Made by a program: the position numbers and the translations under genes. From the NCBI GenBank assembly GCA_014381825.1, contig JACNKX010000069.1:1-64000 (forward strand): a DNA stretch of 64,000 bases. Direction: 5' to 3'. Below the pieces are notes generated by a model. It saw only the letters and a list, made by a program, of their open reading frames with translations, was not told the DNA's origin and made no database searches. Each line of letters opens with the position of its first letter. Within the stretch, counting starts at the first letter, position 1. Origin of the DNA: Planctomycetota bacterium (GTDB lineage: Bacteria > Planctomycetota > Planctomycetia > Pirellulales > Pirellulaceae). Of the stretch, positions 17,448 to 56,562 are shown in pieces.

Positions 17448-18671
17448 ATGGCGATCGAGTTCTATTGCCCAGGTTGTGGGAACTTAATGCGAACACCGGA
17501 TGAAACGGCCGGCCGCAAGGGGCGATGTCCAACGTGTCAATTGAAAGTACAGATCCCCGCCAATTCGGTCGCTTCCACGACGCCAGAATCCGCCGTCCCC
17601 CGAACGGTTCTCGCCGCTAGCGCAGCGGATATGTCGCCGCAGCCGATTCGCTTCGACTGCGCCAGTTGTGGTAAGACGCTCAGCATCGCTGCCGCCAACG
17701 CAGGCAAGAAGGGAAAGTGCCCACACTGCGGCGAATTGATGTCGATACCTATGATGTCGCCATCCGACACCGGCGGCGTGCGTTGGAAGGGTACACCAAA
17801 ACAACCAGCGACGCCCACACCTCCTACTGCCGCAACAGACTCGCCGACACTGATCAAAGCGGGTGGCGAGAAGATTGAGTTTCATTGCTCGAGTTGCAAC
17901 GAGGTAGTTCGCGTTGGAGCCGCTGCTGCAGGAAAGAAGGGGCAGTGTCCACGTTGCAGAGCCGTGATTCGAATTCCGCGAGGTTCCACAATCGCGCTCG
18001 AAGACCCGCTAGTGCCTATGGAGAATGTCCCACCGACATCTCCTCGACCGCGAAGCAACCCCATGCCATCGGGCTTAACTCCGATCGATGGCAAAGCTTT
18101 GTCCCCACTCGAACCGCTGGGCCTAGTCGGAACCGAATCTCCAGGCGACGACCTGCTTGGAATCGATTCGTTCGGGAGTACGAATGCCGATGCTGGGAAT
18201 CCATTTGGTAACGATTTGAATCCTTACTCGGCACCAGCCGTGGCCGCTGCGCCAACGGCGCGTCCACACAGCGGCGAGCGAGGCGGTGCCGAAATCGCAA
18301 CGATGATCTGCGGCGGCTGTCTCATATTCTATGCGTCGGCCCAGATTGTGTTCGTGACGCTGTCGTTGTTATTTCAGGGAACGGCCATGTTCGCCACGAT
18401 GAGCCAGTTACGTGGACGGGGCGAGGACGAGGCATTTGCCACGGGGGTCGTCGCCGGACAGGTTATGTTCGTTGTTGTCGGCGGGATCGTGATGTTGACA
18501 ATCCTGGCTGGCGGCATTCAGATGATCCGATTCAAAACCTGGGGTTTGTCCCTAACCGCGTGTATCCTGACGATCTTGCCTTGCAACTGTTTTTGCCTCC
18601 TAGGATTGCCGATTGGGATTTGGGGAACCATTATGTTGTCATTGAGTTCCATCCGATCGACTTTTCGTTAA
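17448..18671 (+). CDS. Membrane protein with three N-terminal zinc ribbons
   Basis: A 407-residue protein that starts at ATG 17448 (MAIEFYCPGCGNLM). Three zinc ribbons of the form CxxC-x~17-CxxC are strung along the first 185 residues: YCPGCG...CPTCQ, FDCASCGK...CPHCG and FHCSSCNE...CPRCR, each with a GKKGxCPxC core. A Pro/Ser-rich linker follows (about 190-290), then three to four membrane helices (about 298-400), the last with a CNCFCLLG patch. The planctomycete-type small zinc ribbon recurs in the neighbour at 18765. The role is unknown; an internal scaffold or metal/redox-sensing membrane protein are possibilities. Confidence 0.85.
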   Translation: MAIEFYCPGCGNLMRTPDETAGRKGRCPTCQLKVQIPANSVASTTPESAVPRTVLAASAADMSPQPIRFDCASCGKTLSIAAANAGKKGKCPHCGELMSIPMMSPSDTGGVRWKGTPKQPATPTPPTAATDSPTLIKAGGEKIEFHCSSCNEVVRVGAAAAGKKGQCPRCRAVIRIPRGSTIALEDPLVPMENVPPTSPRPRSNPMPSGLTPIDGKALSPLEPLGLVGTESPGDDLLGIDSFGSTNADAGNPFGNDLNPYSAPAVAAAPTARPHSGERGGAEIATMICGGCLIFYASAQIVFVTLSLLFQGTAMFATMSQLRGRGEDEAFATGVVAGQVMFVVVGGIVMLTILAGGIQMIRFKTWGLSLTACILTILPCNCFCLLGLPIGIWGTIMLSLSSIRSTFR

Positions 18672-18679
18672 TAAAACAC

Positions 18680-18730
18680 AGGGTGATCGTGCCCACCGTT
18701 CCAGTCAGATGTTGGGCACAGCCCACCCTA
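18680..18730. repeat. Inverted repeat with GTGCCCA/TGGGCAC and AGGGTG/CACCCT arms
   Basis: Two nested complementary blocks, agggtg...caccct and gtgccca...tgggcac, bracket a 16-base loop between the two zinc-ribbon genes. It can fold into one interrupted hairpin. It could end transcription of the first gene, although no T run follows, or be a dispersed intergenic repeat. Confidence 0.55.
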
Positions 18731-18764
18731 TAAGTAGCCAAATCATCGAGGCTCGGAGTTCCGC

Positions 18765-19745
18765 ATGCCAATTCAATTTCAATGCCCACATTGCAAACAC
18801 GCGATGCAGTTGCCGGATACGGCGGCCGGCAAGCAGGGCAAGTGTCCGAAATGCTCCAATGCAGTAACAGTCCCCACCCCTGGCGCAGCAGCGACTCCGC
18901 CGAATCCCCACGACGCAGAGTTTTGGTCGGAGTTGGATGAGAAGAAGGATGCGATTCCAAACGAAGACGCGGCACCCGAGCCTGTGAAGAAGAGCGATGC
19001 TCAGATTCTCAAGCACATGCTAGGGAAAGCTGAACAAGCCAAGGTCGTGAAGCGAATTGGCCTCCCTTGGGAACGACCTAGGGACGGGGGCATGTTTGAT
19101 CGTTATTGGGATACGGCGATCGGCGTGATGAATCATACGTTAGAGACGTTTGCGGAAATGAAGATCACCGGGGGCATCGGCGGTCCGCTGAAGTTTTTGA
19201 TTCTTGGCGCGATCTTTGGTTCGTTGATCGCCGCCGTTTATGGTCTCGTCGGAAACGCCATTACGACCTTTGGCGTCGCAGGTGCCGTAAGCGAAATCGC
19301 GGCGGAAGAGGGCGCCGATGAGGAAGCCGCCGCCGTAGCGAGCACGGTTGTGACTGCCGGTATGATTATCATCATGGTCCTGGCATTCTTTGGCACTTTC
19401 TTTGGAGGTATCCTCGGAGGCCTCATCCACGGATTTCTGCAAGCGGCGGGACTTCAGCTCGCGTTGCCTATTGTCGGTGTGAAGCAACCAAGTTTTGAAA
19501 AGAATTTCCGGATTGTGGCCTATACGAATGGATCGATCTACCTGTGCAACATCGTCCCCGGTCTTGGTGTTGGCTTTATGACGTTCTTGTGGTTCAAGGG
19601 CATGATTAAGGGGATCGAATCGGTCTACGAAGTTCCCACGAAGACTGCGGTATTGGCCGTGTTACTCTTGGCCCTTCCTCTGGTGTTCCCGATCATTGCC
19701 GTCGTTGGCTTTTTCGCACTAATGATGCTGGGCTATATCGGATGA
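18765..19745 (+). CDS. Membrane protein with one N-terminal zinc ribbon
   Basis: A 326-residue protein. Residues 1-37 form one ribbon (FQCPHCKHAM...GKQGKCPKCSNAV), closely like those of the upstream gene, followed by a charged linker (about 45-110). Four or five hydrophobic segments fill the rest, among them FLILGAIFGSLIAAVYGLVG near 146-165 and TAVLAVLLLALPLVFPIIAV near the C-terminus. An acidic loop EIAAEEGADEEAAAV interrupts the membrane part. The two genes are arranged as a tandem pair on one strand and may have arisen by reuse of the same ribbon module. I do not recognise the membrane domain. Confidence 0.85.
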   Translation: MPIQFQCPHCKHAMQLPDTAAGKQGKCPKCSNAVTVPTPGAAATPPNPHDAEFWSELDEKKDAIPNEDAAPEPVKKSDAQILKHMLGKAEQAKVVKRIGLPWERPRDGGMFDRYWDTAIGVMNHTLETFAEMKITGGIGGPLKFLILGAIFGSLIAAVYGLVGNAITTFGVAGAVSEIAAEEGADEEAAAVASTVVTAGMIIIMVLAFFGTFFGGILGGLIHGFLQAAGLQLALPIVGVKQPSFEKNFRIVAYTNGSIYLCNIVPGLGVGFMTFLWFKGMIKGIESVYEVPTKTAVLAVLLLALPLVFPIIAVVGFFALMMLGYIG

Positions 19746-19957
19746 CCCGGTCCGCCGTTCTCGAGTACAGAACGGTCGGTTGCTTTACCAGTAACAAGAG
19801 AGTGTAAGGATGCTCGTTGAATTTCCGTGCCTAGGATGTTCCTTGCTCCTCCGCGATATCCAGTGGGAGGAGCGCGCTAGATCGATAGTTTGATACTGCT
19901 GGGGCTCGAAGACTCGACGTCAGCCACCCGCGCCAATTGTTACATCGGACGAAACAC

Positions 19958-21016
19958 GTGAGTGGAATTATTGGCCATACGATGTACGCGATCCTGGCCG
20001 GCAAAGCTGCCCACCAGAGAGCGTTACCGATTGCGGGGCTGCTCCACCGTCATTACGCGAGTTATTTGTGCGGTGCATATCTCGGCTGTGATATCCAAAC
20101 GATGCCGGAGGCGATCTGCGTCGATACTGGACAGGAAGTTGGATATGGCACAGCTCCTTTGGAAACGAGTCCTCTGACCGGCGGCGCGGTGCGACCGTGG
20201 ACGCTGGAAGCGGATGGACAGCGTTATCGCCCGAAAGACATTCATCGGTTGTTCTACGGGCGATCCCATCTAGTCTTCGGTTGGAGCGGCACCGAGAACG
20301 CTCATGTTGTTCCCTGGGACCACCTCGCGGATTACTGTGCAGCAGTTGTCGACGATGCGGTTACGTTGTTCGGGCCTGGCGAACGGAAGATCGCGTATCT
20401 GCTGGGCTGGATGGCTCATATCGTCGGCGATAGTCTGATCAAGTCGATACGCCCCGGAATCACGCTTGAACTGCTTGACGGGAAGTACACGCCGCGCAAC
20501 CGGCCGATTCAAGATCTCGTGACATTTCACGAAATTGGGCACAAGGAGTTTGGGTTGGAGTGGGCGGCGCTGCTGGCCGACCTGGCCGAGACACCTGTCG
20601 AGCCGGTTCAGTTTCATTACATGCGAATCGCCACGCCGCGTGGGGAACTGTCACAGCAGTTTCCGAATGCCTGGGTGCCACACCTCGCTCCACTTCTGCG
20701 TGTCGTGCTACACGAAAATCGCCGCTACCAGGCAATTCGAAATGCAAGACTGCTCGATCAGTATGCGTTAGTGAAGACTCCACAGGGAGTTGCGTGCAAC
20801 GAAGATCTCAGCCGTAAAACAGGTGGGCTGACGTATTCGGAAATGGTGGGCGTCGCGGATCGAGCAGGCTTTCGCCACGCACTCTGGCAGATGGGTGAAG
20901 CCATCGTCAAGCTGTTCGAGGAAGTCGTCGAGCGAGCACCGAGGCTTCAGGAATTGAAAGACCTGAATTCCCCGTCTTGGTCCGAGATCACAGCAAAATG
21001 GAAGCGAGTCGAATGA
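19958..21016 (+). CDS. Uncharacterised protein with zinc-dependent phospholipase C-like features
   Basis: About 352 residues, largely soluble. The N-terminus (SGIIGHTMYAILAGKAA) and an internal LLGWMAHIVGDSLIKS (H-x3-D) recall the His/Asp zinc ligands of the phospholipase C / S1-P1 nuclease superfamily, in which AHxxGD is typical. Further conserved-looking His residues occur in IHRLFYGRSHLVF and FHEIGHKEFG. The assignment is weak. The start is uncertain: GTG 19958 is preferred over TTG 19937, and ATG 19982 is possible; none has a clear Shine-Dalgarno. The 212 bases ahead of it contain no gene I can support. Confidence 0.65.
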   Translation: MSGIIGHTMYAILAGKAAHQRALPIAGLLHRHYASYLCGAYLGCDIQTMPEAICVDTGQEVGYGTAPLETSPLTGGAVRPWTLEADGQRYRPKDIHRLFYGRSHLVFGWSGTENAHVVPWDHLADYCAAVVDDAVTLFGPGERKIAYLLGWMAHIVGDSLIKSIRPGITLELLDGKYTPRNRPIQDLVTFHEIGHKEFGLEWAALLADLAETPVEPVQFHYMRIATPRGELSQQFPNAWVPHLAPLLRVVLHENRRYQAIRNARLLDQYALVKTPQGVACNEDLSRKTGGLTYSEMVGVADRAGFRHALWQMGEAIVKLFEEVVERAPRLQELKDLNSPSWSEITAKWKRVE

Positions 21017-47764: not shown

Positions 47765-49714
47765 TTACCGGCGGATTGAGGGGGTTGGGCCCTGAAAGCC
47801 CGCCGGTGCAACATTGCGTGGCTTGCGCCCTGATTGCGACGTTCCTGCAAGAAAATTGTCGATCTGAGAAGTCTCCTTCAACCGATCGAACTCGTCAGCC
47901 ATCGCGATGCGCAGCTTCTTTTCGTGGATGTCTTTGTAGAGTTCGCCTTTGACGGCATCGAAATCATGTACCTTCGGCGTCGTACGTCCCAAGCAACGCA
48001 GGATCACGAACTTGTCACCAACATTCAAAATGCCGGATAATTGTCCAGGCTTGAGACCGAATGCTTCCTCTTCAACAATCGGTTGACCACCGTGCATTCG
48101 AATCGGAGGCACTTTTCCACCGTTCGATCGTGATACGGGTTCGACCGAGTACTGCACCGCAAGTTCACCGAAGAACTTTTCCGTCGGGTTGTGACGTGCC
48201 ATGTCCCACACTTCATTTGCCTGCCGTTGATTCGTCAGTACGATGGCAAGCACTTCGACACGCTCGCCATAATTCGAAGCGAATCCCTTTTGAAGGTCGT
48301 CGTCCTTTACCTCAATCTTGTCACCAACCAACTGCTTCAATGCAACGCTCGGCCAGACAGCGTCTCGCACGTAGAGTTCGACAGTGACGCTGTCGGATTC
48401 AGTGACCGTCTTCAACCACGTGTCGATGTCGGGCGTGCCATCTGCCTTCACGTAACCGTAAGAATCTGCCGCTCGCGCTATCTCGTCATTGATCGCAGGA
48501 TCCGTGACAGTCTTACGATTCTTCTGCAGCTCTTGGACCAGCATGAGCCGATTGATCTCACCCTCCAGAACCTCCTTGCCGTAACGAGCAACGCACTCCT
48601 CGGCAAGTTGCTGCGTCGTAACTTGTCGACCGTTAATCGTTGCCGCAACGCCAGGCATCTGTTGTTGAAGGCGAGCATCGTTAAAGACATTGGCGATTTG
48701 CGATTCGTCTTGCAACTTTTTGAAAATGTCCGTTGCAGCGGATCGCAGCTTGTTATCTCGGATCTGATCGTGAAGTTGTGCGCGTTTCTGTTTCATCTGC
48801 GTGCTGGGAATATAACTCTCGGGCAAATGCTTTTCGCACAGCAAGATCAAGTGTTGATTCGCGACCGGGACAACCTGCGAGATCTCGCCCTCCTTTAACG
48901 TGAACGCAGCTTTCTCGACTTCTGGATACCCGACGTGCATTCGAATTGGCGGAATGATGCCACCTGCAGCGGCGCTGTTGGCGTCTTCCGAAACTTCTTT
49001 CGCAAGATCACCGAACTTGGCAGGATCGGAGATGGCTCGCTTACGAACTTCTTCCGCCTTGGCACGATTGCTGACCGAGATCATACGAACCTTGACCGTT
49101 GGACCGTACTCCGCCTCGAACCCCTTGCGGAGTTCATCATCGGTAACCTCGATCTGTTCGTTCGCGAGGCGTCGAAGAGCCAATGCCGGCCAAATTATCT
49201 CTTGGCGGTAGCGATCCGGTGTGATGTCGCGTTTGCTTTCCAGCATTGTTAGCCACTTGTCTTTTGGCAGCCCGAACTTCGACGCCATTTTCCCGATCTC
49301 AATTTCTACGTCCTTGTCCGTAATCGCAATCTTGTACTTCTGGCATGCTTGCCAGATGAGATGCTTATTGACGATGCTTTCAAGAACATCTTCGCCGTAG
49401 CGGCGCATGCACTCGTTCCCGAGATCTTGGCGAGTAATTTGTTGCCCATTGACGACCGCCATGATCTTTAGATTCTGTTGTTTCTGCGCGCCAGCGGTTG
49501 CTGACGTAGTTGCACCGGAAGGTCGCGTAATGGGAGCAGGCGCGGTACGAGCTGTACCAGCTTGCCGAACTGGAGCCTGTGCAGTTGCCGAGCCAGGCTC
49601 TGACAACGTACGTGCCGCTAGGCAAACACCCAGGACGGCGAGACCACCGCCAGCAATCGAGAAGAATGTCCGAACGCTTCGCTTCTTGCCTTCGCTAGCA
49701 TCCTTGCTAGTCAT
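47765..49714 (-). CDS. Exported tandem parvulin-type peptidyl-prolyl isomerase (SurA/PpiD-like)
   Basis: A 649-residue protein with an N-terminal membrane or signal segment (FFSIAGGGLAVLGVCLAARTL) and a Pro/Ala/Thr linker. Two copies of the same unit follow. Each opens with VNGQQITRQDLGNECMRRYG / INGRQVTTQQLAEECVARYG, a SurA-like helical chaperone domain, and continues into a parvulin domain (KVRMISVSNRAKAEEV..., DANSAAAGGIIPPIRMH / SRSNGGKVPPIRMHGGQP). The C-terminus is GNVAPAGFQGPTPSIRR-like. Duplication of chaperone plus parvulin in one chain is unusual and suits folding of secreted proteins in the periplasm-like space. Confidence 0.88.
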   Translation of the reverse strand: MTSKDASEGKKRSVRTFFSIAGGGLAVLGVCLAARTLSEPGSATAQAPVRQAGTARTAPAPITRPSGATTSATAGAQKQQNLKIMAVVNGQQITRQDLGNECMRRYGEDVLESIVNKHLIWQACQKYKIAITDKDVEIEIGKMASKFGLPKDKWLTMLESKRDITPDRYRQEIIWPALALRRLANEQIEVTDDELRKGFEAEYGPTVKVRMISVSNRAKAEEVRKRAISDPAKFGDLAKEVSEDANSAAAGGIIPPIRMHVGYPEVEKAAFTLKEGEISQVVPVANQHLILLCEKHLPESYIPSTQMKQKRAQLHDQIRDNKLRSAATDIFKKLQDESQIANVFNDARLQQQMPGVAATINGRQVTTQQLAEECVARYGKEVLEGEINRLMLVQELQKNRKTVTDPAINDEIARAADSYGYVKADGTPDIDTWLKTVTESDSVTVELYVRDAVWPSVALKQLVGDKIEVKDDDLQKGFASNYGERVEVLAIVLTNQRQANEVWDMARHNPTEKFFGELAVQYSVEPVSRSNGGKVPPIRMHGGQPIVEEEAFGLKPGQLSGILNVGDKFVILRCLGRTTPKVHDFDAVKGELYKDIHEKKLRIAMADEFDRLKETSQIDNFLAGTSQSGRKPRNVAPAGFQGPTPSIRR

Positions 49715-49903
49715 ATCGGTATCTCCCTAAACGGTATCTCAACTAACCGCAGTCAGTCACTGAATGCTGCTACGCGAACCTCGCGCACGAGGATACACGG
49801 GTGGCGGAATATAGAAGTGGTTCGACGGTGGGTCAATAGAAATGACGGGAGAATCGAAACGCAGGCCTTGGAACTAGCTGGTGTCCTCTTCTCGTTGATC
49901 CAA

Positions 49904-51409
49904 TCACATCGTCGGAGCGGTATGGCGATACATGTTGGCGACCGTTGGATCGAGTAATCCGACGTGATTGATCGGCGCGATCAAGGAAGCAATCTTGCCT
50001 CGGACTAGATCAATCGCCGCTTGCTCCGGGACGCTAGCGTTGTCAGCAATTAGCTGGCGGGCGGAATGTAATAGCTCGCGGATCTCCAACTGGTCAGCAC
50101 ATAGAAACGCCAGTGACGACTCGCCACCGAATCGCTCACGTTCGTAAGTCGTAACCGCAGCGAAGTACAGCATGGATGCAAGGATCAGCAAATCGAACTG
50201 ATGGAACGTCGCAAAACATGTCGAGACCAGTTCGTCGATCAACGCTAGTTCTTGCCCGATAATGAAATCATAATTGCGCAGTGCGAGAGTGCGAGGTTCA
50301 CCCGCTGCGTGCTGATCAAGAATCCGTGCTAGTCGTTCGACGCCGCACAATGAATGCGCGACACCTGTGCTGTGAAGCGGATCGACAAAGCCGGCCGTGT
50401 GTGGCAGTAGCGCCCAGTCTTCGCCGGACGATCGCGACCACCGACGTTGGAGGCGCTGCGTACGTAACATCTTGCCCGGGACGGATGCAAGATTTGCGTT
50501 CGCGAACATGGCTGCGACCGACGGATAGCGATCGAGCCACCGCTTCCACTCCGTCGCCGCGTCCAACGAGTCGTCAAGCGGATGCGCCGCTTCATCCAGC
50601 ACCAATCCGGCACTCGTCAGGCCATTGTTGAATCGCAGCACCCATAACCAAGTACCGTCCAGAATGTGGTGTTGCGCTGCGTTGTCACATGGAAAGGGAT
50701 GGTCCTGCGTGTTGCCACCAAGTTGTTCGAATTGCTCATGCCAAGAATGAACATCTCGAAAATGTGAAAAGATCGCCCGAGAGCGCGTTAGGCACTGATC
50801 GTACGCCGACGCAATTCCGAGGGAGCGAGGTAAGACTCCAGCTTCACCTGTCGCATCGATCACGAAGGACGCTCGCAAAGTGTTCCGTTGTGCCTCGAAC
50901 TGGCAATCAATCGACCAATCGCCGACGCCGTCGTGTCGAATCTTGCCCACGGCGCAGTCTTCGAGAACGGTGACGCCGATCGTGGCCGCTTCGCGATACA
51001 AAAATCGATCGACGTCGGCTCGCAACCATTGTGTATCGCTATCATGATCGCAGCTGCTCGCGGCGACAAGCAACTCGTTTGCGTGCGTTGGAGAAGGCGC
51101 GAAGGTTCGGTCGGCTTCGTGCGCGAAGTAACTGAAGCCTCGTTTCAGTCCGCAGCCCAAGTGGGGATAAGTATCTTGCCACGATCCGTACTTTGTCAAA
51201 GGTAGTAGCCGCGGCAAATCGTATCGTATCGCGAGGTCCCGCAACACCATGTTCGCAATCGGTGTCGACGATTCGCCGATCGCGAATCGCGGATGCCGAG
51301 TCTTGTCGATCAACGCAACGCGCTGTCCGATCTGTTGCAAGATCATCGCCGTCAGGCTACCCGCGAAACCTGATCCGAGCACGACCACATCAAACTCGTG
51401 CGTCTTCAT
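49904..51409 (-). CDS. FAD-dependent oxidoreductase of the flavin halogenase/geranylgeranyl-reductase type
   Basis: A 501-residue flavoprotein. Seen: the FAD-binding motif DVVVLGSGFAGSLTAMIL at the N-terminus, FAIGESSTPIANMVLRDLA (about 42-60; GES(T)xP is typical of Trp-halogenase and reductase families), FVIDATGEAGVLPR, GTWLWVLRFNNGLTSAGLVL (at the place of the halogenase WxWxIP) and a HTAGFVDPLHSTGVAHSL block near 340. The conserved halogenase Lys is not obvious, so halogenation is uncertain; hydroxylation or desaturation of a lipid-like or indole substrate is as likely. Its ATG overlaps the radical SAM stop (ATGA), so the two are translationally coupled. Confidence 0.85.
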   Translation of the reverse strand: MKTHEFDVVVLGSGFAGSLTAMILQQIGQRVALIDKTRHPRFAIGESSTPIANMVLRDLAIRYDLPRLLPLTKYGSWQDTYPHLGCGLKRGFSYFAHEADRTFAPSPTHANELLVAASSCDHDSDTQWLRADVDRFLYREAATIGVTVLEDCAVGKIRHDGVGDWSIDCQFEAQRNTLRASFVIDATGEAGVLPRSLGIASAYDQCLTRSRAIFSHFRDVHSWHEQFEQLGGNTQDHPFPCDNAAQHHILDGTWLWVLRFNNGLTSAGLVLDEAAHPLDDSLDAATEWKRWLDRYPSVAAMFANANLASVPGKMLRTQRLQRRWSRSSGEDWALLPHTAGFVDPLHSTGVAHSLCGVERLARILDQHAAGEPRTLALRNYDFIIGQELALIDELVSTCFATFHQFDLLILASMLYFAAVTTYERERFGGESSLAFLCADQLEIRELLHSARQLIADNASVPEQAAIDLVRGKIASLIAPINHVGLLDPTVANMYRHTAPTM

Positions 51410-52353
51410 CGTGTTGCCTCACAACCACACGAGACGACCGGAAGTAATCGCTGAGTGAGATTCATTTGAGCCAGTCGCGCACGACGGGCTGGACCACACT
51501 GCTCGCAATCGTAGAAACGTTCTGCGTCCCACAAATCGACGAACACGCGGCCGCGTTCCATGGCGAGTCCATCGGTGAGAACCGTTTCCATCGAGCGAAG
51601 TGTTGGTGGTTCAAAGCTTCCGTCAGTTAGCAACATCTCCATAGCACCGTTGCCATCGCGAGTCGGAATGACGCTGCAACATTGAACTCCCGCGTCGAAC
51701 GCGAAGCTGATCGAACGAATGGCCCACTCAATGCCTTCGGATTCGTCTAAAAACGGCGGTCGCAGCAAGATGAAGGCGCGTGTCGCGATCTCGTTTTCGG
51801 AGAGGAATTCTACCGCCCGTTGAAATTCGTTAGTTGTCATCTGCTTGTTCAATCGCGGCAAGACTTCCGGGTGGATCGTTTCCAATCCGATTGCAATTTC
51901 CAGCTTCCCAACCAGCAAGTCACGAAACTGCAGACAATCGTCGCCACACAGCTTCGGATGATTCTCGACAATTACCGTGTCGAACGACGACACACGTTTG
52001 GCGATCACCTCGTAGTCCGCTTGCGGAATGGCTTGGCGGTCGAAAAAGTTGCCGCTGTTATAGAGCTTGACGTGCTTGGCCGGAGGCAACTCCGAGAGTG
52101 CGAATTCGATTTGCTCCGGAATCGCACCGACGGGAACGCGCTCGTCCGTGGTATTCTTCCACAAATCACACATCAAGCAGCGAAATGGGCACTCGCGATT
52201 TGTCAGGAAGATCGTCGCCACATCTTCGATCTGACCGTTCGCCGCACACTCAGGTTCGACAAGGGAGGCGTAGGGGCGATGCGGGTCGACCGCGTTTTTA
52301 GGCGGTCGCGCGGCAATGATCTTGGCGTCGTCCCACGCATTGGTTCCGTACAT
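51406..52353 (-). CDS. Radical SAM enzyme, RaSEA/TIGR01210-like
   Basis: A 315-residue iron-sulfur enzyme. The cluster motif is ECPFRCLMCDLW (C-x3-C-x2-C, about 62-70). Further blocks match the archaeosine radical SAM (RaSEA)/Elp3-like group: VKLYNSGNFFDRQAIP (F.SGSFLD), VIVENHPKLCGDD, LEIAIGLETIHPEVLPRLNKQM, FILLRPPFLDESEGIEWA and CSVIPTRDGNGAMEMLL. A C-terminal DCEQCGP...CGCEATR may hold a second metal site. The start is ATG 52353; GTG 52368 is also possible. RaSEA acts on a tRNA deazaguanine in archaea, where no halogenase-like partner is known, so the substrate is open. First gene of a two-gene operon with the flavoprotein. Confidence 0.85.
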   Translation of the reverse strand: MYGTNAWDDAKIIAARPPKNAVDPHRPYASLVEPECAANGQIEDVATIFLTNRECPFRCLMCDLWKNTTDERVPVGAIPEQIEFALSELPPAKHVKLYNSGNFFDRQAIPQADYEVIAKRVSSFDTVIVENHPKLCGDDCLQFRDLLVGKLEIAIGLETIHPEVLPRLNKQMTTNEFQRAVEFLSENEIATRAFILLRPPFLDESEGIEWAIRSISFAFDAGVQCCSVIPTRDGNGAMEMLLTDGSFEPPTLRSMETVLTDGLAMERGRVFVDLWDAERFYDCEQCGPARRARLAQMNLTQRLLPVVSCGCEATR

Positions 52354-52484
52354 CGAGTGAATTACCACCTGCTAACGATTAACTGGCCTCATTTTCCAGA
52401 ACCTCATTCAGAAGTATACTGGGCGACTAGTAATGTGTCGTTCAATGCTGTGTTTCAAGGATTTCGCTACGGTGAGGCAGATAA

Positions 52485-52715
52485 ATGGCTGACAAGTTCG
52501 ATCCGTATCGTGAAGCGGTTGTTGTCGAGGCGACGACCGTATGGCCGGACGAGTATGACGAGTGGGAGCCGACGGAGAAGGCTCGCATCGCGGAAGCGTT
52601 GCACGCAGATCCGGAAAGCTGTGCGAATCTGGAGTACGTTCGGATGCATACCGGCTTCTGCCGTCAAATCACTGTCACAGAAGATGACGTCGAACGCGCC
52701 GGCCAAAACGCATAG
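52485..52715 (+). CDS. Small conserved planctomycete protein
   Basis: A 76-residue soluble acidic protein: MADKFDPYREAVVVEATTVW, a WPDEYDEWEP patch, RMHTGFCRQITVTEDDVERA at the C-terminus. I recall close relatives in many planctomycetes, including the HTGFCRQITVT block, but no function. A TATACT (52415-52420) lies ahead. It sits upstream of aroB on the same strand, divergent from the radical SAM gene, with 50 bases to aroB, so it could be co-transcribed. Confidence 0.75.
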   Translation: MADKFDPYREAVVVEATTVWPDEYDEWEPTEKARIAEALHADPESCANLEYVRMHTGFCRQITVTEDDVERAGQNA

Positions 52716-52765
52716 CGATGCTGATTTGCGCGATCATATTCGTTTGACGGAGTGGGAGAGAAACG

Positions 52766-53875
52766 TTGGCTACCGATACCACGACCGTCCACGTCGCGTT
52801 ATCCGAGCGTAGCTACGATATCGAAATCGGGCCGGGCCTGTTGGCTGACGCAGGCCAGTTCGTCCTTGATCGTACCGTCTTTAATCGCACAAAGTGCTCT
52901 CATGTCGTCGTAATCACCGATTCCAATGTCGAATCGCTGCACGGCCAGAGCGTTGTCAACAGTTTGGAGCAAGCGGGTATTCGCGTCGACATGGCAACCG
53001 TGCCAGCTGGTGAATCAACGAAATCCGCGTCGCATGCTGATCAGCTATGGAGGTTGATGCTGGAGTTCGGTGCCGACCGGAAATCCATCGTCGTCGCTGT
53101 CGGTGGCGGAGTTGTTGGCGACTTGGCGGGCTTCATCGCCGCGACGTATGGCCGGGGCATCCGATTCGTTCAAATTCCGACGACCTTGCTCGCACAGGTT
53201 GATTCGAGCGTGGGCGGCAAAGTCGGAATTAACTTGCCCGGTGCAAAGAATCTGGTCGGTGCATTTTGGCAGCCCGCTGCCGTGCTAGTCGATACCGACG
53301 TATTGAACACGTTGCCGATTCGTGACTATCGGTCTGGGTTGGCCGAAGTCGTGAAGTACGGAGTGATTCTCGATCCCGAGTTCTTCGAATATCTCGAAGC
53401 CAACGTTGACGGCCTGAATGATCGCGACACGAGCGTCATGCGTCACATCGTTGCTCGCAGTTGTGAATTGAAGGCGGAGGTCGTGGCGGCGGACGAACGC
53501 GAAGAAACGGGTCTGCGAGCAGTCTTGAACTACGGACACACCTTTTGTCACGCCGTCGAGGCGGAAACCGGGTACGGAACGTACCTTCACGGCGAAGCTG
53601 TTGCGATCGGCATGTTGTGTGCCTCGCGTCTCGCCGAATCAATGGGCCGAATCAACGCCGAGGCAACCCGCCGGCAGCAAGAGTTGCTTGAGGCTCTTGG
53701 ACTTCCGTTGGCCGTGCCCGACGTCAACCACGACGTCTTGATTCAATCGATGCAAAAGGACAAAAAGACCGAACACGGCAAGCTGCGCTTCGTGTTACCG
53801 ACTCGTCTCGGGCATGTCGAGCTTGTTTCGGACGTGCCCGAAGAACTCGTGCGAGCTGCGCTGATCACCAGCTAA
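52766..53875 (+). CDS. aroB: 3-dehydroquinate synthase
   Basis: A 369-residue NAD- and metal-dependent enzyme of the shikimate pathway that makes 3-dehydroquinate from DAHP. Seen: VITDSNVESLHGQSV, GESTKSASHADQLW, VVAVGGGVVGDLAGFIAATYGRG, FVQIPTTLLAQVDSSVGGKVGIN, and the metal ligands Glu in RSGLAEVVKYG(VI), His in LNYGHTFCHAVE and YLHGEAVAIGM. The start is TTG 52766 with GGGAGAG ahead. Standard length. Confidence 0.97.
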   Translation: MATDTTTVHVALSERSYDIEIGPGLLADAGQFVLDRTVFNRTKCSHVVVITDSNVESLHGQSVVNSLEQAGIRVDMATVPAGESTKSASHADQLWRLMLEFGADRKSIVVAVGGGVVGDLAGFIAATYGRGIRFVQIPTTLLAQVDSSVGGKVGINLPGAKNLVGAFWQPAAVLVDTDVLNTLPIRDYRSGLAEVVKYGVILDPEFFEYLEANVDGLNDRDTSVMRHIVARSCELKAEVVAADEREETGLRAVLNYGHTFCHAVEAETGYGTYLHGEAVAIGMLCASRLAESMGRINAEATRRQQELLEALGLPLAVPDVNHDVLIQSMQKDKKTEHGKLRFVLPTRLGHVELVSDVPEELVRAALITS

Positions 53876-53956
53876 CTTCTGCGCCCACATCTGTGAATTG
53901 CTGGACGCGACGGGTGGCACGGCTTACATTGTTTGCATCGTTTTCTTCTTGTTGCG

Positions 53957-55096
53957 ATGATGGGTATTACAGTGGCAGACGGGGTTGAATCAACACGAGA
54001 CGCGCTGGAAGCAGCCGTCCGATTGTCGCTCGTTCCTGGTGTCGGCCCGCGAACGCGTAAATCGCTGTTGGAGTGTCTCGGGTCTGCGGAATCGGTGTTC
54101 GAGGCTGCGCCAAATATCTTGCGGCAAGTCCCAGGAGTGGGCCACAAGTTAGTGCGAACCATTTCGGACGCTCGGACGAACATCGATGTTGCTGCTGAGC
54201 TACAGCTTTGTTCCGACAATGACATTTCGTTATTGCTGGACACGGATGATGGCTACCCGAAGCTGCTCAGCCAGATTCACGATCCGCCGGGTATTCTGTA
54301 TCTACAAGGGGAAATCAGACCGAGTGATGGGTTAGCGATCGCGATCGTTGGCACGCGGCATGCGACTCAGTATGGATTGCAACAAGCGGAGCGTTTGGCG
54401 GAAGGGCTGGCTCGCGCGGGCCTGACGATCGTCAGCGGATTGGCTCGCGGAATTGATGCAGCAGCGCATCGAGCTGCATTGCGAGCCGGTGGACGAACGC
54501 TGGCCGTGCTGGGTAGCGGCTTGCTTGAGATTTATCCGCCCGAGCATCGCGAGCTCAGCCGACAGGTAATCGAAAGCGGCGCTTTGATGAGCGAGGCTCC
54601 TCCACGAAGTCGTCCGGTCGCGGGAGCATTTCCTCAACGAAATCGCATCGTGACTGGTTTGAGCATGGGCGTAATCGTCGTCGAAGCCGCGCTGCGATCT
54701 GGCGCGCTGATCTCAGCCGAGCACGCTATGGAGCAAGGTCGCGAAGTGTTCGCCGTTCCTGGACGGGTTGATAGTCGCACGTCGCACGGTTGCCATCGAT
54801 TGTTGCGTGAGGGCGCGAAACTCGTAGAAAACGTCGATGATGTGTTGGAGGAGCTTGGACCGTTGTTCGCGTCAGCGCCTACCGATGACGGGCGAGAAGT
54901 GCGACATCCAGCTGAGTTACAGCTGAACGATCAAGAACAAGCCGTCCTCGATGCCATTCATCAAGAACCAACGACCATCGACGAAGTTGTGACCAACAGT
55001 GGCCTGCCGGTTCATCGTGTCTTGTCGACTGTCAGCGTGCTCGAAATGCGGCGACTTGTTCGACGAATCAGTGGTAATCAAGTCAGTCGGTACTAA
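53957..55096 (+). CDS. dprA: DNA-processing protein DprA
   Basis: About 379 residues. An N-terminal helix-hairpin-helix/SAM-like part (VPGVGPRTRKSLLECLGS, VPGVGHKLVRTI) is followed by the DprA Rossmann domain: VGTRHATQYG, SGLARGIDAAAHRAAL, AVLGSGLLEIYPPEH, SEAPPRSRPVAGAFPQRNRIVTGLS and VEAALRSGALISAEHAMEQGREVFAVPG. A C-terminal winged helix (DEVVTNSGLPVHRVLSTVSVL) follows. DprA loads RecA on transforming single-stranded DNA. Start uncertain among ATG 53957, ATG 53960 and GTG 53972. Its end overlaps the convergent BNR gene by 4 bases. Confidence 0.95.
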   Translation: MMGITVADGVESTRDALEAAVRLSLVPGVGPRTRKSLLECLGSAESVFEAAPNILRQVPGVGHKLVRTISDARTNIDVAAELQLCSDNDISLLLDTDDGYPKLLSQIHDPPGILYLQGEIRPSDGLAIAIVGTRHATQYGLQQAERLAEGLARAGLTIVSGLARGIDAAAHRAALRAGGRTLAVLGSGLLEIYPPEHRELSRQVIESGALMSEAPPRSRPVAGAFPQRNRIVTGLSMGVIVVEAALRSGALISAEHAMEQGREVFAVPGRVDSRTSHGCHRLLREGAKLVENVDDVLEELGPLFASAPTDDGREVRHPAELQLNDQEQAVLDAIHQEPTTIDEVVTNSGLPVHRVLSTVSVLEMRRLVRRISGNQVSRY

Positions 55097-56217
55097 GGAG
55101 CGAAACGAACACAATGGATCGGCGGTAGGTGATTCGAAATGCCTTCCCACGAGTCGCCACCGTCTTCAGAGATCCACAGCGAACCTGTTGTCGAGCCCAT
55201 CGCAAGGCGCTCGCCAGTGCCGTCGACATCCAAAGCGTGGCGGTAGACGATGTCGTAGCAATGACGATTGGGGAGGCCGTTCCCTGTCGCTTCAAACGAT
55301 TTGCCGCCGTCGCGTGTGCGAGTAACGACCAGCTTGCCATCGACCGGGACACGGCATTCGTCCTTTACTCCCGGAACAAACCAGGCAGTATCTGGATCGC
55401 GTGGATGCACCACGACCGCGAAGCCAAACGCGGACGGCTCGACATCCATGATCTCCTCCCACAGTTCGCCTCCGCTGGTCGAGCGAAAGATTCCATTGTG
55501 ATGTTGCACCCACAGCGTTTCCGGATTGGCTGGGCATTGCACCAAGCGATGTGGGTCTTGAACATTCGGATTGCCTGCTTCTTCGGGAGGTAAGTACTCG
55601 GCGCGCATCCCATCCGCTCGACAGTTCCACGTTTCGCCACCGTCTTCGGTCACCCAAGCGCCTCCGCAAGAGACGCCCAGCGTGACGTGCTGGCTGTTGC
55701 TCGGATGCACAGCGACTGAATGAATACCAGGACTGTCTTTGCCGCCGCCAAACCACTGCCATCGTTCTTCGCGCTCCCACAGCGAACGAATGATCTCCCA
55801 CGAATTGCCTCGATCTGTCGAACGAAATAACCCGCCCGGAATCGTCCCCGCCCACAACACGCCTGGTTCATCAGGTCCGCCGGGCGTCAGCTCCCAAATC
55901 TCCTTCAAGCTTGAAAAGTCGCGCGCTGCTCCCATTTCAGGTGACTCGCCTTGTCGCCTTTTATCTTCTTCGGTGAACGTCGGGTAAGTAGGAACTGCGC
56001 ATTCTTCCCAGCTCTTTCCGCCATCGCACGACCGCTGCAGCTTGACGCCGAAATGCCCATGATCGAACGCGACGTAGATCGCTGCGTCGCGCGGATCATG
56101 CAGCAACAGCGTCGCGTTCTCTCCTACGAAATCGACTTTCGATACATCCCACAAGTTGCCCGTGCGCTCGACCGTAAAGAATCCCTTGCGAGTTGCAGCG
56201 TAGAGACGATCACTCAT
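55093..56217 (-). CDS. BNR/Asp-box repeat beta-propeller protein (sialidase-like fold)
   Basis: A 374-residue protein without a signal peptide. Asp-box motifs recur: RSCDGGKSWEE, RSTDRGNSWEII, TEDGGETWNC, RSTSGGELWEE, RTRDGGKSFE and SEDGGDSWEG, spaced by about 45-60 residues, as in six- to eight-bladed propellers of the sialidase/vacuolar sorting type. The Arg triad of real sialidases is not obvious, so catalysis is not claimed. The next gene on the strand is a MoaD/ThiS-like sulfur carrier 75 bases upstream; this pairing recurs in several bacterial groups in my recollection, which suggests a functional link. Confidence 0.85.
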   Translation of the reverse strand: MSDRLYAATRKGFFTVERTGNLWDVSKVDFVGENATLLLHDPRDAAIYVAFDHGHFGVKLQRSCDGGKSWEECAVPTYPTFTEEDKRRQGESPEMGAARDFSSLKEIWELTPGGPDEPGVLWAGTIPGGLFRSTDRGNSWEIIRSLWEREERWQWFGGGKDSPGIHSVAVHPSNSQHVTLGVSCGGAWVTEDGGETWNCRADGMRAEYLPPEEAGNPNVQDPHRLVQCPANPETLWVQHHNGIFRSTSGGELWEEIMDVEPSAFGFAVVVHPRDPDTAWFVPGVKDECRVPVDGKLVVTRTRDGGKSFEATGNGLPNRHCYDIVYRHALDVDGTGERLAMGSTTGSLWISEDGGDSWEGISNHLPPIHCVRFAP

Positions 56218-56292: not shown

Positions 56293-56562
56293 TCAGCCGC
56301 CTGACAACGCCTGCATGACGTAGATTTCGCTCGAAGGCTCGACGAGATCGCCCAGCGTCTCGCGATCGTTAATCGCCTTGCCATCGACGAATACGACCAT
56401 GTGCTTGCGCAGCCGGTCTTGATCATCCAAGACGTAGCCTCGCAGTTGAGGATGCTCGACGAAAACCGCGTCAAGCGATTGCCGGACGGTTTCGCCACCG
56501 ATGACCGTTTCGGGACACTCAACGTGGCGTTTCAAGTTCGAAGTGAACACAACGCGAGGCAT
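56293..56562 (-). CDS. MoaD/ThiS-family ubiquitin-like protein
   Basis: An 89-residue beta-grasp protein: VVFTSNLKRHVECPETVIGG near the N-terminus, VFVEHPQLRGYVLDDQDRLRKHMVVFVDGKAI in the middle, and a C-terminal SGG (YVMQALSGG), the tail that is activated for sulfur transfer in MoaD/ThiS. It is separate from the thiS at 190-390. It lies upstream of the BNR-repeat gene on the minus strand. Its activating enzyme (MoeB/ThiF-like) and molybdopterin synthase large subunit are not in the window; it may instead serve another sulfur transfer or be a protein tag. Confidence 0.88.
   Translation of the reverse strand: MPRVVFTSNLKRHVECPETVIGGETVRQSLDAVFVEHPQLRGYVLDDQDRLRKHMVVFVDGKAINDRETLGDLVEPSSEIYVMQALSGG

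Follow-up and report, generated by a model that had tools for sequence, protein, structure and literature searches.

A RaSEA-like radical SAM gene overlapping a halogenase-like gene in a planctomycete, and the ligase and exported-looking partner protein inherited with them

This analysis concerns two overlapping genes on the minus strand of a planctomycete contig. The window, the whole 64,000-nucleotide stretch that was analyzed (contig JACNKX010000069.1, to which coordinates refer unless a contig or locus is named), holds a RaSEA-like (Elp3-type) radical S-adenosylmethionine (SAM) gene at 51406..52353 and a PltM/CtcP-type flavin-dependent halogenase-like gene, typed by profile comparison with the PDB, at 49904..51409. 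The first encodes 315 residues from an ATG at 52353 (320 from an alternative GTG start at 52368) and the second 501; read as open reading frames (ORFs), they share an ATGA stop/start overlap at 51406..51409. An initial annotation had described this coupled pair, with GESSTP and WLWVLRF blocks in the flavoprotein, and all of these features are present as stated; it had also suggested that the pair might form a pathway of its own. Across the window's class, these two enzymes are inherited together with a third, a ligase, whether the three genes lie adjacent or scattered. The presence of this trio is followed by that of a fourth protein, here called U1, which looks exported.

The conserved motif and the modeled fold make the window's radical SAM protein a member of that superfamily. 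Its CxxxCxxC cysteines for the [4Fe-4S] cluster and SAM (C55, C59 and C62; 52168..52191, minus strand) are unchanged across 17 of 17 aligned members, and its AlphaFold2 model (predicted local distance difference test score, pLDDT, 94.2) has a partial TIM-barrel fold, with pyruvate formate-lyase (PFL) activating enzyme, Elp3, MgmA and MiaB among the nearest solved folds in Foldseek. The RaSEA likeness noted initially holds as similarity (109.1 bits, E 2.5e-31, against the equivalog model TIGR01210) but not as membership, the curated cut-off being 212.15; the score against Pfam Radical_SAM (PF04055, 26.5 bits) also falls below its cut-off of 29.5. A PDB sequence search with the family returned no relatives at E 0.1. 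Named relatives of the pair are mostly planctomycetes, and in an 80-row tree of the radical SAM family the Bacteroidota and the Planctomycetota form one supported side each. A plasmid search returned only two Streptomyces proteins, at ~30% identity to the enzyme. On plasmid pFRL5 of Streptomyces sp. F8 (locus L215, 11692-18350), a distant relative, 30% identical over half its length, stands in a run with P450, serine hydroxymethyltransferase, glycosyltransferase and carbamoyltransferase genes, apparently a separate natural-product cluster.

Against Pfam Trp_halogenase (cut-off 21) the flavoprotein scores 55.5 bits, and its nearest solved relatives by sequence search are the tetracycline 7-halogenase CtcP (E 8e-45) and PltM (E 1.8e-40). 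With the family profile, the match extends to positions 7-428 of 502 for CtcP (E 1.8e-73) and 4-414 for PltM (E 1.7e-72), and on these alignments it is a homolog of both, with a homology that spans the flavin adenine dinucleotide (FAD) domain and a portion of the C-terminal region. Within the FAD-binding domain, the GESSTP block (residues 45-50; 51260..51277, minus strand) keeps G45, E46, S47, T49 and P50 unchanged in 16 of 16 members. The comparison with the halogenase lysine proposed at the outset was borne out: Lys89 (51143..51145, minus strand) is a lysine in all 16 members. It aligns with residue 107 of the PltM chain (Lys87, since the chain numbering runs 20 residues ahead) and with CtcP Lys98, chain residue 99 in PDB sequence 7xgb. 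The PltM K87A variant is inactive (PMC6424973), and Lys98 of CtcP is the catalytic-lysine position (PMC12400496). The second proposed comparison, with WxWxIP, gives a mixed picture. Its counterpart WLWVLRF (residues 254-260; 50630..50650, minus strand, from sequence and alignment) keeps the tryptophans (one member of 16 has Y for the second); at the "P" position, 12 members have R, three P and one G. The protein shares with PltM and CtcP a match over ~420 of 502 profile positions, a GESxTP-type block, the catalytic lysine and a D-P-x-x-S-x-G block, and differs in having mostly W-x-L-R at the WxWxIP site and in traveling with a ligase and a radical SAM enzyme.

The ligase came to notice through gene neighborhoods: its cluster is found in 62 of 80 loci of relatives taken from a genome collection (48 of them Bacteroidota), mostly directly upstream of the radical SAM gene. 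The window's genome (G000; G, C, L, f and g are our handles for genomes, contigs, loci, families and genera) carries it on a different contig, at G000:C30:74418-75737. Both the G000 copy (59.1 bits) and that of Maribacter (38.2 bits) pass the cut-off of 21 for the AsnB-like synthetase domain PF00733, and the SGxDS-type ATP loop (S179, G181, D183 and S184) is invariant in 16 members. The same 16 members have no invariant cysteine before C124 and no cysteine at position 2, so the glutaminase nucleophile is missing, and the Maribacter copy reaches 42.3 bits against a cut-off of 267.1 for glutamine-hydrolyzing asparagine synthetase (TIGR01536); that assignment was rejected on both grounds. The ligase model is middling (pLDDT 72.6), and its Foldseek relatives are AsnB, beta-lactam synthetase, carbapenam synthetase and the hydroxyamidotransferase TsnB9. 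It has the ATP loop in common with these enzymes but only 13-19% identity, and differs in its missing glutaminase cysteine and in being paired with a radical SAM enzyme. Taken together, the AsnB-type ATP loop, the lack of an N-terminal cysteine and the fold matches suggest that the amine from which it makes an amide should be something other than ammonia released from glutamine.

To measure how these genes are distributed, 297 genomes of the window's class were each searched with every protein, at E cut-offs of 1e-3 for the radical SAM enzyme and 1e-20 for both the flavoprotein and the ligase. Matches occur in 102, 101 and 102 genomes, respectively; 108 genomes have at least one of the three and 95 have all. 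Radical SAM and flavoprotein genes are both present in 96 genomes, which makes the pairing in the window more than a chance arrangement, and 95 of these also have the ligase. The pair is therefore widely conserved in the class, as had been anticipated, but it is not always adjacent: the two genes lie on one strand within 700 bases of each other in 59 of the 96 genomes and apart in 37, mostly on separate contigs or hundreds of kilobases from each other. The unlinked genes still co-occur, so the initial proposal is not refuted on the ground that homologs of the two are usually not neighbors.

Thirteen genomes break the pattern. Two of them are contig ends: in G200, which has flavoprotein and ligase, contig C179 ends 6 bases beyond the match to the flavoprotein, where the radical SAM gene is missing, and in G201, which has radical SAM and flavoprotein genes, a 9,092-base contig stops 186 bases past the radical SAM match, where the ligase is missing. 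G257 has only a radical SAM match, a weak one at 28% identity, and G164 only the ligase. The flavoprotein stands alone in G288, a genome 74% complete, and in G057, G092 and G112, where the match is at 32-33% identity and perhaps belongs to another halogenase; the remaining five lack only the flavoprotein. The stretches concerned in these last three flavoprotein-only genomes (L244, L245 and G112:C336, respectively) come from genomes with U1 and without a ligase or radical SAM match, and their diverged flavoproteins are perhaps a remnant or a second halogenase type. Because the genomes are related, naive co-occurrence probabilities are not meaningful, and changes within a genus make the better argument: in genus g12, G191 has all four genes, the trio and U1, on four draft contigs, and G170 has none. 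Chorismatase, used as a control query, was found in 19 of the 297 genomes, four of them among the 103 with ligase or radical SAM; this shows no association, and it was rejected as an extra component in the class. A recurrent further gene beside scattered flavoprotein or ligase copies was also sought, and the 20 stretches inspected gave only neighbors confined to one genus (L172-L174, three genomes); the same stretches include UnbV relatives near the G000 ligase.

U1 is a protein of ~1190 residues (G000:C6:421-4125 in the window's genome) with FG-GAP and UnbV domains, TPR where detected, and a conserved, unannotated C-terminal part of ~430 residues, which matched no Pfam model in our scans and no PDB chain at E 1. 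Both PF13517 (FG-GAP) and PF07593 (UnbV_ASPIC) exceed their cut-offs in U1 of L051 and L210; the G000 copy meets the FG-GAP cut-off, has a weak UnbV match (18.0 bits against 23.4) and shows no TPR at E 0.01. Judging by eye from the N-termini, which have a single hydrophobic segment or a lipobox-like signal, U1 looks exported, with a membrane-anchor-like or lipoprotein-like start. The C-terminal part served as the search query. In an upper class of matches (E up to 1e-84), a cut-off set after the scores were seen, U1 is present in 102 of the 103 genomes that have a ligase or radical SAM gene (G257 not counted) versus nine of 194 others, the single miss being G201, where the U1 match is in three pieces. 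At 1e-10, there are matches in 187 of the 297 genomes and in 103 of the 103. Within the window's own family the division is complete: each of the 21 trio-bearing genomes has U1, whereas the 15 that lack the trio give no match even at 1e-10.

Gene order links the same proteins and adds a second, shorter UnbV protein. In L241 (genome G034) the ligase, radical SAM, flavoprotein, U1 and second UnbV genes follow on one strand; in L202-L205 the order is U1, UnbV, ligase, radical SAM; and in L210 and L211, U1 and a UnbV protein converge on the trio. In the f16 genomes, which have no flavoprotein, and in Bacteroidota, two FG-GAP/UnbV genes, U1 and the shorter protein, precede the ligase and radical SAM genes. 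We also observed a c554-like multihaem cytochrome/TPR gene and an UnbV gene close to U1 in several families (L210, at 17614-19998; L227; L237; L242); L237 comes from a genome without the trio.

The Bacteroidota, including cultured Maribacter and Lutibacter, have a version consisting of ligase and radical SAM enzyme, with U1 and the second UnbV protein upstream and no flavoprotein. Counting only loci with room upstream, every one of 45 has the ligase no more than 2.3 kb before the radical SAM gene. The second UnbV protein lies at most 7 kb upstream in 35 of 37 such loci and U1 at most 8 kb upstream in 25 of 28, and LivK-like (amino-acid-type) periplasmic binding proteins are encoded no farther than 10 kb upstream in 24 of 27. 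None of the 48 Bacteroidota loci has the flavoprotein, nor was it found in 20 genomes of Bacteroidota or relatives, a set that held no positive control for the query, which matches 101 genomes of the window's class. A DAHP synthase or RidA/chorismatase-like gene lies upstream in 22 of the 25 Bacteroidota loci with more than 9.7 kb upstream, as DAHP synthase (PF00793) in 14 (in two pieces in L104) and as the RidA/chorismatase-like gene in eight. Of the other three, L044 has both genes downstream, L049 has a chorismatase instead and L053 has neither. The L049 chorismatase is of the FkbO/Hyg5 type, over the cut-off for PF21168 and, at 125.7 bits, below the NCBIfam cut-off of 325; in L101 a chorismatase relative lies directly 3' of the radical SAM gene. 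After the ligase and radical SAM genes of L049, which comes from a Bacteroidales metagenome-assembled genome, 12672-16110 encodes proteins with HZS_alpha (hydrazine synthase alpha middle) domains and a beta-propeller with a CCP_MauG di-haem domain.

Tentatively, we favor a reading in which the window's pair is two thirds of an enzyme trio that makes a small aromatic compound for the exported-looking U1. The glutaminase-less ligase nearly always occurs with the RaSEA-like enzyme, which suggests the two-step logic of ArcS and RaSEA applied to another substrate. In T. kodakarensis, lysine is attached to preQ0 by ArcS, which is active only in complex with RaSEA, and RaSEA then converts the adduct to archaeosine (PMC11298593). 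Common to both systems are a RaSEA-like radical SAM enzyme coupled to a C-N bond-making enzyme, for which lysine is the donor in T. kodakarensis; they differ in that the ligase here is of the AsnB/beta-lactam-synthetase type, no ArcS was found in the window's genome, the RaSEA model cut-off is missed and the partner looks exported.

Under the trio reading, the enzymes would be cytoplasmic and have a small aromatic compound as substrate. The ligase would activate a carboxylate with ATP and join to it an amine other than free ammonia, much as lysine is joined to preQ0, and the radical SAM enzyme would then, like RaSEA, cut or rearrange the amino-acid-like side chain so that an amide or lactam remains. 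The planctomycete flavoprotein would halogenate, or less likely hydroxylate, a phenol ring. The product may then cross the membrane to U1 and its beta-propeller partners, which would bind it or use it, perhaps as an electron carrier or prosthetic group. In different phyla, the halogenase-like flavoprotein and the genes for DAHP synthase and chorismatase-like proteins suggest a phenolic, chorismate-derived substrate; passage of a small molecule across the membrane is suggested by the amino-acid-type binding proteins, together with the exported look of the partner. Since the ligase–radical SAM core exists in Bacteroidota without the flavoprotein, halogenation would be an add-on.

Several observations weigh against this reading. 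Four genomes of family f16 (G017, G032, G068 and G115) and G096 have ligase and radical SAM enzyme without the flavoprotein, so halogenation is not essential even in the window's class. Nine of the 111 genomes with upper-class U1 have neither ligase nor radical SAM enzyme, so U1 can live without the trio, and at the looser threshold of 1e-10 a U1 relative is found in 84 of the 194 genomes without ligase or radical SAM. The family of the second UnbV protein is common, with relatives in 33 of the 41 genomes of the window's family; it was rejected as a phylogenetic marker for this reason, and gene order alone ties it to the system. The best hint of an aromatic substrate, the DAHP synthase and chorismatase-like genes, is tied to the system only in Bacteroidota. 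Nor is the lysine route general even for ArcS, given that the M. jannaschii enzyme is reported to use ammonia, asparagine or glutamine (PMC11298593). The observations cover composition, co-inheritance and gene order, whereas substrate, product and reaction are inferred.

The strongest rival, which we consider rather unlikely, has the trio modify U1 (or its UnbV partner) itself before export, yielding a protein-derived cofactor or cross-link as QhpD/QhpG, LodB and GoxB do. In the QhpD/QhpG system a radical SAM enzyme and a flavin monooxygenase serve an exported oxidoreductase, and the strict co-occurrence and shared gene order of the trio with U1 would fit a similar arrangement. So would the match of the flavoprotein to the QhpG model (E 1.7e-21), those to the GoxB and LodB models, both below cut-off, and the weak profile match to peptidyl tryptophan dihydroxylase 7ctq (E 5.3e-6), although QhpG itself is matched at 76.7 bits against a cut-off of 240 and the present system has an extra ligase. 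Five tryptophans in the U1 C-terminal region are invariant across 45 aligned sequences, which were filtered by a GSCP motif (L103, L238 and L243 were left out); because the sequences were chosen by that motif, the invariant cysteine of the alignment means nothing. The U1 of L238, from the trio-less genome G057, is without the GSC motif. Yet no target residue stands out: when the six copies from trio-less genomes were compared with 39 from loci or genomes with ligase and radical SAM, 17 of 114 near-invariant columns varied in some of the six and none was changed in all six (the seventh copy, L238, had been filtered out), weak evidence in a GSCP-filtered set but enough for us to reject a target residue lost in all six trio-less copies compared. 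The 315-residue radical SAM protein shows no added domain in NCBIfam and Pfam scans, and PltM-type halogenases and beta-lactam-synthetase-like ligases usually act on small molecules, both of which count against a protein target.

A small molecule of another kind, a halogenated-phenol secondary metabolite (a signal, toxin or antioxidant) made by something like the 3,5-dibromo-p-anisic acid route, with U1 serving only in resistance, transport or sensing, strikes us as unlikely. The PltM/CtcP-type flavoprotein with its catalytic lysine speaks for it, and planctomycetes make halogenated phenols, the genes for one of which, alichondrichlorin, are given as unknown (PMC12078418). Against it stand the 37 of 96 genomes in which the radical SAM and flavoprotein genes lie apart and the ligase–radical SAM core kept in Bacteroidota without the flavoprotein. 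Among genes no more than six ORFs from the radical SAM gene at 28 planctomycete loci, moreover, the commonest besides flavoprotein and ligase is that of an ABC-transporter ATPase (six loci, four of them in one syntenic group), in a setting where most neighbors are unannotated and other biosynthetic genes are possible. An archaeosine-like RNA modification, with ligase and radical SAM enzyme acting on a tRNA base that the flavoprotein oxidizes, appears very unlikely. RaSEA is the nearest characterized family, Elp3 and MiaB are among the nearest folds, and the genes of RNA-modification pathways are usually scattered, as here. But the TIGR01210 cut-off is missed, and ArcS (PF17884) has no match in G000 with a query that matches the M. 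jannaschii, H. volcanii and M. acetivorans controls; on these two results archaeosine or other RNA modification was rejected. The exported look of the fourth partner and the periplasmic binding proteins at Bacteroidota loci make the RNA substrate once considered for the pair less likely still. Least probable of all, and hardly credible to us, is the self-contained two-enzyme pathway of the initial annotation: the ATGA overlap and the adjacency in 59 of 96 genomes would suit it, but it is contradicted by the co-inheritance of ligase and U1 with the pair (the ligase is in 95 of the 96 genomes with both, and the 96th, G201, ends at a contig edge), as well as by the Bacteroidota version without flavoprotein.

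Around the pair itself, the stretch 49700-52800 has four promoter-like sites versus a mean of 1.7 in shuffles. One of these, 52441-52413 (minus strand), lies upstream of the pair, so that the suggestion of a promoter of its own is matched by one site, but at the level of consensus matches only. The divergent neighbors are 3-dehydroquinate synthase (aroB, 52766-53875, plus strand) and DprA (53933-55096, plus strand). The claim that no other biosynthetic genes lie around is nearly right in the window, where aroB is the neighbor, but wrong genome-wide, with ligase and U1 elsewhere. As a member of the system aroB was rejected: among the fetched loci outside the window's genome, the linkage recurs only in a close relative, L031. 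A 76-residue ORF without a Pfam match (52485-52715, plus strand) separates the pair from aroB. Downstream of the pair, 47765-49714 (minus strand) encodes a 649-residue protein with two PPIC-type stretches and a SurA-like N-terminus; beyond DprA lie a Sortilin/BNR-repeat protein (55093-56217, minus strand) and a short ThiS-family protein (56293-56562, minus strand; 22.7 bits, cut-off 22.5).

Each enzyme belongs to a known superfamily; as far as we can see, neither the system nor its partner protein and product has been described. No description of the set was found in the open full-text literature, most subscription papers lying outside that coverage, and to this extent the initial proposal of an undescribed pathway stands. 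Three chemistries, glutaminase-less AsnB-type ligation, RaSEA-like radical chemistry and phenol halogenation, were not found together in the literature searched. A more specific version of the trio reading, on balance quite unlikely, is that the trio makes a small cofactor of a new kind, redox or prosthetic: an aromatic amide, ring-halogenated in planctomycetes, used by an exported U1 class that hands electrons to c-type cytochromes; in the loci examined, cytochromes do occur near U1 or the core, as the c554-like multihaem proteins of L210, L227, L237 and L242 and the CCP_MauG and HZS_alpha proteins of L049. Pyrroloquinoline quinone (PQQ) is a cofactor made with a radical SAM enzyme and used by periplasmic beta-propeller enzymes, and the likeness, by analogy only, lies in cytoplasmic synthesis for an exported repeat-protein user. 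If true, the cofactor would serve U1 as PQQ serves its dehydrogenases, and this would explain why four scattered genes are gained and lost together. The system, whose trio is carried by 95 of the 297 genomes sampled, offers a specific lead on what one class of FG-GAP/UnbV proteins, with a conserved and unannotated C-terminus, may need.

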